Notes under the pieces: model-generated
The model's input: only the letters and a program-made list of their open reading frames with translations
Told to the model about the DNA's origin: nothing
Database searches by the model: none
Position numbers and translations under genes: made by a program
Origin: Cylindrotheca closterium
Lineage: Eukaryota; Bacillariophyta; Bacillariophyceae; Bacillariales; Bacillariaceae
Assembly (NCBI GenBank): GCA_933822405.4
Contig: CAKOGP040001847.1
Coordinates: 1-64,000 of the forward strand
Direction: 5' to 3'
Length of the DNA: 64,000 nucleotides
In this document: positions 47,818-61,735 of the stretch, piece by piece
Layout of the letters: each line of letters begins with the position of its first letter
How positions within the stretch are numbered: position 1 is the stretch's first letter

Positions 47818-48511
47818 ATGCCTCGTTTCTTTGACGATTATTCGAATACCTACTTGACTCATGACAGTTCCGCTGGCCGTAAGCAACAACGGCGAGGTTG
47901 GAAATTTCGAGAAAATTTCAAATTGCATTACGGTGACCACATTGATGATTGGCGTAAGTACAATACTGTATATGGCTTTTTGGCAAACTGTGGTTTCTAC
48001 AAAAGGACACTTGACTAATATTTTGCTTCCATTGTTTCAATAATATTTTATAGGAAAAGGACCAATGGGTTTGGCGTCAGCACAACAGGCATATATTAAA
48101 GCAATGGGTATCAATGATCCCATGATTCCTCCTCTCCCGGATCATTGGAAGCAAGAGGCGGACGATGTGACTGGGATTTTGTATTATTTCAATACCATGA
48201 CCAAGGAACGATCTTGGGTGAGACCAGGATTCTTTCCACCCCCGCCACCAGGGGTCATGGGTCGAGGACCACCACCACCCCGAGGAGGATTCAATCAGGG
48301 AGGAGGAGGATTTCCGCCACAAGGCAATTTCAATCGGGGTCCGCCACCACCGCCAATGATGCAGCAGAGGCCACCCTATGGAGGCCCACCGCCGCCAATG
48401 CAAGGAGGCCCCCCCCCTCCATTTTCAGGTGGTCTTCCTCCGCCCCCACCGGGACAGTATGGGGGACCACCTCCACCGAATAACTTTCAGCGGCCACCAC
48501 CAAGATATTAG
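47818..48511 (+). CDS. U1-C-like protein without zinc ligands, fused to a WW domain
   Basis: Exons 47818-47953 and 48054-48511 (100-bp intron), 197 residues. The first 40 residues align without gaps to the N-terminal zinc finger of the U1 snRNP C protein ([18 protein letters not shown], then GWKFRENFK). All four zinc ligands are replaced: C6 to D, C9 to S, H24 to Q and H30 to F. Residues 74-104 form a WW domain (W77, YYFN, W100), and the rest is Pro/Gly-rich (PPPP...RGG). U1-C stabilises 5' splice-site recognition, and WW domains bind proline-rich splicing factors, so a spliceosome-associated role is plausible. It may be a specialised paralogue beside a normal U1-C elsewhere. The intron starts in the hinge between the two parts. 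Confidence 0.75.
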
Positions 48512-48870
48512 ATCGAATCAAATAAGGTGGACAATAAGTCATGCATGTTCCTGAAGTAGGCCCGAGTTTCTTGGATAATGACTAAAGACATCCGTCTCAC
48601 AGCAAACAATACAAAACTAGTACTTCATTGTAATTGATGAACCCCGAGTAATATTATGGAGTAGGCCTGCCGTAATGTAATTTACAATACAGATCGATCG
48701 TCGAGTCGACGAGGTCAACGGTTTTAAGTCGTGGCATAATCTTTTGCATAGCGATGCGTTCGCAATGTTACTGCATTATTGTTTCGGAACACAACCACAC
48801 ATACTTCAAGCAGATAGAATGCTGAACGCATACCGGTGATTGTATTTGTATATATCACATATTGAATAGT
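48512..48870. other. Intergenic, no gene seen
   Basis: 3' region of the U1-C-like gene and promoter of the oxidase. Confidence 0.6.
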
Positions 48871-51054
48871 ATGGCTAAGAAACCATTTACCATGGAAAAA
48901 GAGAGCAAAGACTTGTTGCAAACATGCGTTCCAGGAGTCACCGTCTCCACAACACATGATTCTTGTACTGATTCCCCCCGATTGTTTCACTACTATCACA
49001 GCTATCAGACTTTGTACGTGGAAGATGACGAGTACAATGATGATGCTGATGATGATGAAGGCAGTCCTATGTATCATTCTTCTCCCATCACACAGCATGT
49101 GCCTCGGCTAGAAGAACAACGACAACGGAATCGAATCATACTCTTGATTCGTCTGTCGTTGTTGTTGAGTGCAGTTTGGTTCTATTGTTACAATTCTTCT
49201 ACCACAACCAACAGCAACGAAAGTCAATCAAACCATTCGTCACTTCCAACCTGGACGGTAGAAAATGAAACCGCAACAAATGCTACTCGTGTTGGTGACG
49301 ATCGTCAAGACCACATCTTGACCGCACTCAAGAATTTGGACGAAGATATTCAGGGGGATATTGTCCTTGCCTCTACCAAGCAAAAGTTTCAAATGGCGGC
49401 CAAAGTGTGGTCCTTGGGACGAGAGCCGCCACTTGCCGTGGTGGAAGCTTTTAGTATACAAGATGTGGCGTTGGCCGTCCCCATTTTGGCGGGACTCTCC
49501 AAGGAATACTCGCTCGAATTTCGTGTCAAGTCGGGAGGTCACTCATTCGATGGGGCCAGTACTGTCCAAGGGGGAGTCATGCTCTCCTTGGCCAAATTGA
49601 ATGCCATGACACTCTCGTGGGATCCCGAAAACGATGACGATGATGATGCTAATCAGACGCAAAGAATGAAAATGACAACGACTCCACAACACCGGAAGCA
49701 GCAACAACAAGATCCATCACCCAAGACGGTCATTGTGCAATCTGGTGTCAAAATGGAAGACTTCTTGGGAACCGTATTGGACCAGCACGGATACGAGTCA
49801 GTGGTATCCTCGGCTGCTGGCGTAGCCTTTGGTGGCTTTTTGCTGGGAGGTGGCTATGGTTCTACTTCCAGGCTTCATGGATTGGCCATGGATCAAGTTA
49901 TCAGGATCAAGGCCGTGCTAGTGAATGGAACCGTGGTAGATGTGTATGCACCAAACGCAACGACGACAAGAACTAGCTTTAGCAGTAGAAGTAGTCAAGA
50001 CAATGACAATGATGACCTCTTTTGGGGACTCCTCGGGGCAGGAGGTGGCAACTTTGCAGTGGCAGTCGAGTATGAACTCAAGGTGTATCCCTCCAAGGAT
50101 ATGAAATTGGGTGCCAAGGTGAAAATGCCAATTTCTTACTTGACACAGTTCTTGCAAAAGGTGGGAGAAAAAGAACCAAAATTGGATGACAGGTTTATTG
50201 CTTCTGTAGAAGAGTTTGAATTAAGTGGTGGGGGCTCTTCCCCAGATGGTGGTGAGGATGATACTCGTTCCTTCCAATCCAAACTTTTGAAATTGAAATC
50301 CGAAGCCAAGAATGGCTATCGTTTTTCTCGTCTAGGCAAGACGAATAATAATGATGATCAGTACAATGATACTGAAGAGGAAGGAACTGCAACGGTGACA
50401 TTACACTGGATGGGGGACTCCAATGGTGGAAGCGACGACGGAGAGGTTGGAATGGACTACATTAACCAGAATGTTGTGTCTCTGATTCCACAAAAGGTCC
50501 GCAAGGATGTGACAGTCAGCTATTATTATTTCTCTTGGTCCGGGATTACTCGACAAAAGGAACAATCCGAGACTTGGAGGACAGTCTGGGCGGCCCAAGC
50601 GTGGAATGGCTTTTTAATGCCCGAAAATAATACTGCTGCTGTTTGGCAAAGCATCTACAAGGATATGATGACCATGTTTCAGTACTGCACCTTTTTGGTT
50701 CCCAATATCGAACTTTGGGGTGGTGCCATTTCACAACGTACTAACAATGAAACAGCCTTTGCACATCGGCAAGCGGTCTACAATGTGGGAGTCCGACTAA
50801 TGGTGCCAAATGGTACCAAAGAGGAGCAACATTTCTCTGAAGATCAATCGGCATTGGTGAGTGCAGTATGGCCATCGATTGCAAAGCATTTGCAAGGAGT
50901 CTATGTGAATTATCCAATGTCCAGCTTGGCCAAGGAAGACTATCCCAATGCCTACTGGGGCGATAATTTGGATCGCCTCGTCAAACTGAAGGATCAATTT
51001 GATCCTGATAACTATTTGCACCATCCTCACAGCGTGCCAAGTGCAAAGAAATGA
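48871..51054 (+). CDS. Membrane-anchored berberine-bridge-type FAD oxidase
   Basis: 727 residues, single exon, ATG 48871. An acidic N-terminal tail precedes one membrane anchor (IILLIRLSLLLSAVWFYCY), so the catalytic part should face the lumen or exterior. The FAD-binding domain has VKSGGHSFDGAST with His224 at the position of the 8-alpha covalent FAD link, then AGVAFGGFLLGGGYGSTSRL, FWGLLGAGGGNFAVAVEYEL, and the C-terminal YWGDNLDRLVKLKDQFDPDN of the BBE domain. The second covalent site (Cys before GGHxxGGG in bicovalent enzymes) is absent, so single-link FAD is predicted. Substrates in this family are sugars or alcohols; none can be named here. Confidence 0.85.
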   Translation: MAKKPFTMEKESKDLLQTCVPGVTVSTTHDSCTDSPRLFHYYHSYQTLYVEDDEYNDDADDDEGSPMYHSSPITQHVPRLEEQRQRNRIILLIRLSLLLSAVWFYCYNSSTTTNSNESQSNHSSLPTWTVENETATNATRVGDDRQDHILTALKNLDEDIQGDIVLASTKQKFQMAAKVWSLGREPPLAVVEAFSIQDVALAVPILAGLSKEYSLEFRVKSGGHSFDGASTVQGGVMLSLAKLNAMTLSWDPENDDDDDANQTQRMKMTTTPQHRKQQQQDPSPKTVIVQSGVKMEDFLGTVLDQHGYESVVSSAAGVAFGGFLLGGGYGSTSRLHGLAMDQVIRIKAVLVNGTVVDVYAPNATTTRTSFSSRSSQDNDNDDLFWGLLGAGGGNFAVAVEYELKVYPSKDMKLGAKVKMPISYLTQFLQKVGEKEPKLDDRFIASVEEFELSGGGSSPDGGEDDTRSFQSKLLKLKSEAKNGYRFSRLGKTNNNDDQYNDTEEEGTATVTLHWMGDSNGGSDDGEVGMDYINQNVVSLIPQKVRKDVTVSYYYFSWSGITRQKEQSETWRTVWAAQAWNGFLMPENNTAAVWQSIYKDMMTMFQYCTFLVPNIELWGGAISQRTNNETAFAHRQAVYNVGVRLMVPNGTKEEQHFSEDQSALVSAVWPSIAKHLQGVYVNYPMSSLAKEDYPNAYWGDNLDRLVKLKDQFDPDNYLHHPHSVPSAKK

Positions 51055-60375: not shown

Positions 60376-61735
60376 ATGCCAGGCCACGAAGACAGTGGTG
60401 ATCCACCGCTAGGTGGTCCCGACGATGAGCCGATTAGTAGCAGTCGTCCTCGCCGAAGTCGATCACGATCTCCTCCACGTCGACGCCGTCGAAGCAGGAG
60501 TCGAAGTCTTAGCCGGAGTCGATCCAGATCGCCAGAATCACGACGAAGGCGATCACCTCCTCGGCGATACCGAGGAAGATCAAGGAGTCGCAGTTTTAGT
60601 CCAGGGCGCTCTCGCAGTCGATCGCCTCCCCATGGTGTAAGTATCTTGGATGCCTGGTATTTTTTTCAATCACAATCACCTACATGGTTGCATTGCATGT
60701 GATGGTGATGTATGTCATTCTGGCGAAAAAATCTGACTCGCTAATTCTACCTATTGATTTGTAGGGAAGACATTCTCGTGAGAGAGATCGCTCTGGAGGT
60801 CGTAGAGGAGGACCTGGCTTTGGTGGAAGAGGAGGTATGTTTGTTTCACAATATATCATCAATTCATCTTGTGCAATAGGTACTTTTTTCTTTCTTTCAA
60901 AGGATACCTCACCCATCAACTTCAAATCTTTTTTCGATCAGATTATGGACGCGGCTATGGACCACCCCGTGGGCCTTATGGTGAACCCTTTCACGATGCC
61001 GCTGGCTCAGGTCCTTACGGTCCTCCACGAGGCGGAGGAGGAGGACCTCCGCCCCGCCGTGGAGGAGAACGTAGACGCCGTGAGGAAGGGCCTCCTGGAG
61101 TCTCTCTCTTGGTGCGAAACGTATCTCCCGATGCGACTACTGCTGATTTGCAAAGGGCTTTTGGAAAGATTGGAGAAGTGCGAGATGTCTACATTCCAAG
61201 AGACTACCACTCACAGCAACCCAAGGGATTTGCTTTTATTGAATATGCCGACCCTGAAATGGCAAAGGAAGCACGCGATGAGATGGATAGATTCCGAATC
61301 AAGGGACGGGAACTCGAAGTTGTGTTTGCTCAAGAACGACGCAAAACTCCTGGTGAGATGAAAGTTCGAGGTGGTGCTCCTGGTGAACGTGAACGAGGAG
61401 GAGGAGGTGGTGGTGGTGCTCCAAGTGGCCGTGGACGAGGTGGAGGAGGAGGCGGTGACCGTGGACGAGGCGGACGCAACTTTGAGCGGTAAGTGAATTG
61501 GATGAAGTTGTCCTATGGTACAACTCCTGAGGCCCCGGACTAACGAAGATTCTCTGACATGTCCCACAGCTCGTCTTCCTTTGAGAGACATCAAAATCAA
61601 CAGCGAAATCGGGATCGAAAGGGGAGTGATAATGAAGGCCGTCGTTCGGAATCGAGTCCAAAGAACGATCGCAAGGGCGAAGAATCTGGAAATGCCGCTG
61701 GGGAAGGCAACCAAGGATCAAATAATGATGTCTGA
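60376..61735 (+). CDS. SR splicing factor (RS-RRM, SC35-like/SRSF10 type)
   Basis: Exons 60376-60636, 60765-60834, 60942-61488 and 61570-61735; 347 residues. An N-terminal RS region (RSRSRSPPRRRRRSRSRS) is followed by a Gly/Arg linker. One RRM starts near residue 164 (SLLVRNVSPDATTADLQ, KGFAFIEYADPEMAKEARDE) and ends VVFAQERRKTPGEM, close to plant SCL30/SC35-like proteins. An RGG tail and a short charged Asn/Ser end complete it. SR proteins bind exonic enhancers and recruit splicing factors; the RS domain at the N-terminus is the SCL/SRSF10 arrangement. Exon 2 is only 70 bp, so exon skipping with a frameshift is possible. Confidence 0.85.

Follow-up and report, generated by a model that had tools for sequence, protein, structure and literature searches.

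The window, the whole 64,000-nucleotide stretch analysed here, comprises positions 1-64000 of contig C308 in the 47.6 Mb assembly of Cylindrotheca closterium. It contains a two-exon gene whose product joins a U1-C-like N-terminus to a WW domain, with the following features:

47818..47953, + strand: exon 1, ex-zinc-finger and start of helix B (spliced frame = P0001)
47818..47931, + strand: residues 1-38, former U1-C zinc finger (ungapped alignment with U1-C)
47833..47835, + strand: codon 6, Asp for ligand Cys6
47842..47844, + strand: codon 9, Ser for ligand Cys9
47887..47889, + strand: codon 24, Gln for ligand His24
47905..47907, + strand: codon 30, Phe for ligand His30
47954..48053, + strand: GT-AG intron of 100 nt, GTAAGT...TTATAG
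48054..48511, + strand: exon 2, rest of helix B followed by the linker, the WW domain, the proline-rich tail and the stop
48062..48106, + strand: predicted linker helix, residues 49-63 (pLDDT 86-93 in ten-residue blocks)
48134..48226, + strand: WW domain, residues 73-103 (PF00397, 31.3 bits; PDB WW matches)
48236..48508, + strand: proline/glycine-rich tail by sequence, residues 107-197, the least conserved part

The 197-codon spliced product is identical, letter for letter, to the NCBI C. closterium protein P0001 and contains no cysteine, and the 5' splice site of its intron, GTAAGT, can pair in full with the 5' end of U1 snRNA. The neighbouring gene (48862-51054, + strand) is a 730-aa ORF with FAD-binding and berberine-bridge-like domains, and an SR-like ORF, with a single RRM and a Gly/Arg-rich tail, lies at 60869-61492 (+ strand).

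Pfam recognised zf-U1 (residues 1-35, 26.6 bits, cut-off 22) and WW (31.3 bits, cut-off 26.9) as the sole domains of the protein, with no FF domains after the WW. In the PDB sequence search the best match was the WW region of yeast Prp40 (1o6w, E 1.8e-8), and human U1-C (2vrd) matched residues 1-45 (E 4.8e-7). The alignment to U1-C starts at Met1, spans residues 1-38 and is gap-free between the ligand positions; at positions 6, 9, 24 and 30 the protein reads D, S, Q and F (D/S/Q/F), where human and oomycete U1-C read C, C, H and H. A preliminary description of this DNA had proposed that the protein keeps U1-C spacing while D, S, Q and F stand at the ligand positions C6, C9, H24 and H30, and that a WW domain had been fused to the U1-C-like part. 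The gap-free alignment and the Pfam and PDB matches confirmed the former; the fusion proved real and nearly general, as 92 of 93 diatom-type proteins scanned have a WW domain.

Relatives were collected with three queries, namely residues 1-110 of the protein (best 120 of 210 relatives listed), an invented canonical-looking bait (best 120 of 490) and an invented diatom-like bait with the ligands written in (best 120 of 177). The pooled rows comprised 295 different proteins, all found through shared five-letter words, which strongly diverged fingers would escape, and the start of the finger could be placed by a simple scan in 293; in the other two, P0062 and P0104, the usual finger start is absent and diatom sequence runs onward. 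Among the matches listed with a locatable finger start, 166/293 carry D/S/Q/F, 5/293 carry C/S/Q/F (P0069, P0071, P0075, P0081 and P0285) and 122/293 keep all four ligands, 119 by scan and three by eye (P0181, P0190 and P0191, in which an insert shifts the scan and C, C is followed by H, H past the insert). Plants and metagenome entries were among the 119 C/C/H/H proteins. No two- or three-ligand form appeared among the 293 listed relatives, despite a bait designed to rank such forms first, and gradual loss via visible intermediates was rejected on this ground.

Since grouping by the ligand letters cannot serve as evidence about them, the 293 proteins were also grouped blind to the ligands, by the linker motif and the W.RP of the WW domain. 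This selected 165 proteins with D/S/Q/F in 161, C/S/Q/F in 4 and the canonical set in none; position 6 was D in 161 and C in 4, and S9, Q24 and F30 were each present in 165/165. The 128 proteins outside the group were the 119 C/C/H/H proteins, 6 diatom-type proteins without the motif and the 3 insert rows. From finger start to end, 142 of the 171 diatom-type proteins, here grouped by ligand letters, are free of cysteine. The U1-type C2H2 finger is recognised by its zinc ligands Cys6, Cys9, His24 and His30, and the diatom-type protein lacks this set; judged by its residues it is not a zinc finger, though Pfam scores zf-U1 above the cut-off.

In a tree of 112 rows and 105 columns, with most inner forks open and no branch separating the chosen outgroup from the other rows, the 99 diatom-type rows formed one group (SH-aLRT 98), which was retained without the ligand positions (101 columns, SH-aLRT 92). 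Inside this group P0069, P0071 and P0075 clustered with D6 rows (SH-aLRT 99, and 97 without the ligand columns, in a short tree with most forks open), and it is therefore unlikely that these C6-only proteins are ancestral intermediates.

All 16 named diatom species checked carry D/S/Q/F, as established by name for C. closterium, C. fusiformis, Nitzschia sp. Nitz4, Fistulifera solaris, Fragilaria crotonensis, Stephanocyclus meneghinianus, Conticribra weissflogii, Cyclostephanos tholiformis, Thalassiosira pseudonana, T. oceanica, T. exigua and Chaetoceros tenuissimus, and by taxid for Asterionellopsis glacialis, Coscinodiscus wailesii, Stephanopyxis turris and Minutocellus polymorphus. The preliminary description had suggested aligning orthologues from other diatoms, among which intact Cys/His would mark the gene as a lone mutant; intact orthologues were absent from the 16 diatoms, and a lone mutant is excluded. 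The non-diatom check covered 37 entries (P0121-P0152, P0155, P0177 and P0180-P0182), 35 of them named (all except P0140 and P0146). By scan, 36 of the 37 read C/C/H/H, the remaining one being the insert-bearing P0181, and all 35 named non-diatom stramenopile entries were canonical, drawn from oomycetes, Fibrocapsa, Nannochloropsis, brown algae, Phaeothamnion, Phaeomonas and pelagophytes (P0155 by taxid). Bolidophyceae and Dictyochophyceae are the nearest relatives of diatoms, and neither occurred by name among the listed relatives. Three metagenome proteins, P0288, P0291 and P0294 (MPRFFCDYCDAYL...GWKHRENF), have all ligands present with F4, F5 and F34 already there; at a guess, they are a near sister group of the diatom type.

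U1-C stabilises U1 snRNA at the 5' splice site, and its structure is regarded as depending on the zinc site. A second, canonical U1-C, which the preliminary description had proposed looking for, was not found in the assembly by PF06220 or an oomycete U1-C query, and such a copy was set aside. The PF06220 search gave two loci, the U1-C-like gene and a 453-aa ORF with an intact C..C..H..H; the oomycete query, run exon by exon against the 47.6 Mb, matched only the U1-C-like locus (66% over 41 residues, E 1.4e-13) and nothing else at E<=10. The idea that zinc sites were lost throughout this genome was likewise rejected, since the other zf-U1 protein and the zinc knuckle of SF1 keep their ligands.

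As for the partners of U1-C, a U1 snRNA candidate on C135 scored 52.8 bits over the full model, below the Rfam gathering score of 69.5, and has an intact 5' end (AUACUUACCU) and loop (GAUCAAGAAG). The SmD3 acidic pair meets Arg21 of U1-C, and the best SmD3 match (C112) keeps this pair (FEAEDQMN). A second, diverged SmD3-like frame of 112 aa, with SAEETMNLSL at the acidic pair, lies at G000:C551:567235-567417. The N-terminus of U1-70K holds U1-C in the human U1 snRNP; a PF12220 search of the genome, run without a positive control, gave no U1-70K candidate, and with human and Arabidopsis RRMs as queries all matches lay at 24-41% identity. The loci opened from these matches appear to be CSTF2, CBP20 and an SR-type protein, the CBP20-like locus giving only an RRM in the domain search; the RRM ORF of the window was inspected as well. 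A diverged U1-70K or an assembly gap is possible, because the U1 snRNA loop bound by U1-70K elsewhere is preserved.

The ex-finger is the best conserved part of the diatom-type protein. In the 93-row diatom-type alignment the mean pairwise identity was 0.959 for residues 1-38, a value possibly somewhat high because word-based searching favours conserved fingers, compared with 0.562 for residues 39-70, 0.612 for the WW domain and 0.485 for the tail. Decay is therefore excluded, and the earlier view that pseudogenisation is unlikely was borne out by the sharing of the ligand-free form among diatoms and by the identity of the ex-finger. The same description had proposed selection for a zinc-free fold; its exclusion of decay stands, but AlphaFold2 did not recover a U1-C fold without zinc. 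Some relatives bear the label of MMETSP, a transcriptome project, which suggests that in those relatives the ligand-free form is transcribed.

The residues in contact with the RNA backbone or SmD3 in the human U1 snRNP were taken from PMC4383343. Of these, T11 is kept in 169, Y12 and T14 in 170 each, and H15, R21 and K22 in 171 each of the 171 diatom-type proteins, and the contact positions that differ from human are S19 (A), H24 (Q) and R28 (W). W28 is also the commonest residue of the canonical set (74/119), in which D7 and H15 are each found in 119/119. D6, D7 and H15 are nearly invariant in the diatom type, and position 37 is H in 160/171. The diatom-typical changes beside the ligands are F4, F34, R25 and mostly H37.

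Structures were predicted with AlphaFold2 from 93 diatom-type sequences and, as a canonical control, from 32 sequences. The diatom model, for which the near-invariant alignment gives AlphaFold2 little to work with, showed an all-helical ex-finger with one long helix (18-47) and no hairpin, with low confidence at residues 1-20 (pLDDT about 50), pLDDT of 86-93 in the linker helix blocks and 92-97 over residues 71-100 (WW). The control had the U1-C topology (a hairpin followed by helices 18-25 and 29-45), at a low pLDDT of about 60. In Foldseek the best 50 of 197 matches to the diatom model were all WW-containing entries, and the control gave two matches, with 2vrd first (E 0.038, rmsd 7.5; weak). 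These models weakly suggest that the isolated ex-finger may lack a zinc-finger fold.

A Prp40-like ORF of the genome has both WW and FF domains, and simple relocation of the WW from Prp40 to U1-C was rejected since this ORF retains them. An SF1-like ORF combines a KH domain and a zinc knuckle with a tail bearing PPPPP and PPAY stretches. According to PMC11079029, the WW domains of PRPF40A bind PPLP/PPPP motifs of SF1, and we infer that the diatom WW domain reaches SF1-like proline-rich tails. Outside the window, an unusually WW-rich open frame of 3018 aa with 27 separate WW matches was found at G000:C329:785215-791430.

Compared with known systems, the diatom protein resembles U1-C/Yhc1 (SNRPC) in its 38 N-terminal residues in register, most RNA- and SmD3-facing residues, the proline-rich tail and the lack of a detected second copy in the assembly; unlike U1-C/Yhc1, it has all four ligands replaced and a WW domain added. 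Its closest sequences are the CCHH U1-C proteins of stramenopiles (oomycetes, Nannochloropsis, brown algae, pelagophytes and Fibrocapsa), which share G20 and W28, whereas these keep CCHH and the precomputed Pfam column of the named entries contains no WW domain. With Prp40/PRPF40A it shares the WW domain and the proposed bridge from U1 snRNP to SF1, but it has no FF domains and a separate Prp40-like ORF exists in the genome. The order of a U1-C finger followed by a WW domain also occurs in four metagenome proteins (P0186, P0187, P0189 and P0203), whose zinc-finger ligands are intact and whose linker and WW, of a different type, are unlike the diatom ones; they are possibly an independent U1-C/WW fusion in another lineage. 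WBP4 consists of a zf-U1 with ligands and then WW domains, whereas the diatom protein lacks the ligands and has a U1-C-like N-terminus. Zinc-free versions of zinc proteins are known from bacterial ribosomes, where, as PMC3087516 reports, conserved RNP proteins such as S4 have zinc and zinc-free (C-) versions. According to the same paper, both forms occur across bacteria and side by side in 26 genomes, whereas the diatom clade, as far as sampled, has only the zinc-free form. A literature search covering few subscription journals or preprints returned no zinc-free U1-C and no U1-C with a WW domain in diatoms.

In our judgement, diatom U1-C probably works without zinc, with aromatic and U1 snRNP contacts replacing the metal and the WW domain reaching SF1-like tails. 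This reading builds on the orthology by sequence, ligand loss, conservation, lack of a second copy in the assembly, WW domain, intact U1 5' end and SmD3 pair observed here. Most likely in the stem of diatoms, the zinc site would have been lost through C6D, C9S, H24Q and H30F, accompanied by V34F, N25R and Y4F. The ex-finger would remain a member of the U1 snRNP, still sitting on the duplex of U1 snRNA with the 5' splice site and on SmD3, and would bind no metal, its zinc core giving way to aromatic packing (F4, F5, F30, F34 and L13) and a further hold coming from contacts formed in the assembled U1 snRNP. Through helix B and the short linker helix, the C-terminal WW could add a contact to the proline-rich tails of early splicing factors, with SF1 as the first candidate partner, in parallel to Prp40. 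Function without ligands is unexpected, because in PMC3985668 the human U1-C mutants C6S, C9S, H24Q and H30Q each abolish binding to the U1 snRNP and C6A is lethal in yeast. The same study reports that yeast tolerates C9A, H24A and H30A, which shows a possible first step toward ligand loss.

A more radical reading, which we regard as rather doubtful, is that the diatom ancestor swapped the zinc-nucleated fold of U1-C for a zinc-free one, that U1-70K was lost or became unrecognisable and that the WW serves as a cross-intron contact to the branch-point factor; the new fold would perhaps consist of a single long helix plus an N-terminal arm, the arm becoming ordered only upon contact with SmD3 and the U1/5'-splice-site duplex. 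It is improbable that this U1-C descendant has left the U1 snRNP for another role, such as one on another RNA duplex or as a WW scaffold, leaving the diatom U1 snRNP without U1-C. The failure of human ligand mutants to bind the U1 snRNP (PMC3985668), the undetected U1-70K (PF12220 and human/Arabidopsis RRM queries), the additional WW domain and an AlphaFold2 model without the U1-C fold would fit such a departure, but most RNA- and SmD3-facing residues are kept (169-171 of 171), the genome has a U1 snRNA and an SmD3 with the acidic pair, and searches of the assembly gave no other U1-C.

That the ex-finger holds a different metal through D6, D7, H15, Q24 or H37 instead of the C2H2 site seems very unlikely. 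The near invariance of D6, D7 and H15 and the presence of H37 in 160/171 are what one might expect of such a site, yet D7 and H15 are invariant in the canonical set too and need no metal to explain them, D6 is C in 5/171, and S9 and F30 are unable to form the old site. A decaying gene or a sequencing artefact has a negligible probability: decay could give the loss of all four ligands, but the same residues recur across many separate database entries and the identity of the finger (0.959) far exceeds that elsewhere (0.485-0.612). With D/S/Q/F in 166/293 of the relatives listed, lone mutation and decay were both rejected.

Under the preferred reading, that of a U1-C working without zinc, the whole zinc site appears to have been removed early in diatom history and the result then frozen. 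This change is hidden in annotation, because family models label the diatom-type proteins zinc fingers. Diatom U1-C allows a direct test of what zinc is for, with a natural set of accompanying changes (Y4F, N25R, H30F and V34F), and it suggests that the early spliceosome has changed in a major phytoplankton group; if the more radical reading is true, it would mean a rebuilt diatom U1 snRNP.
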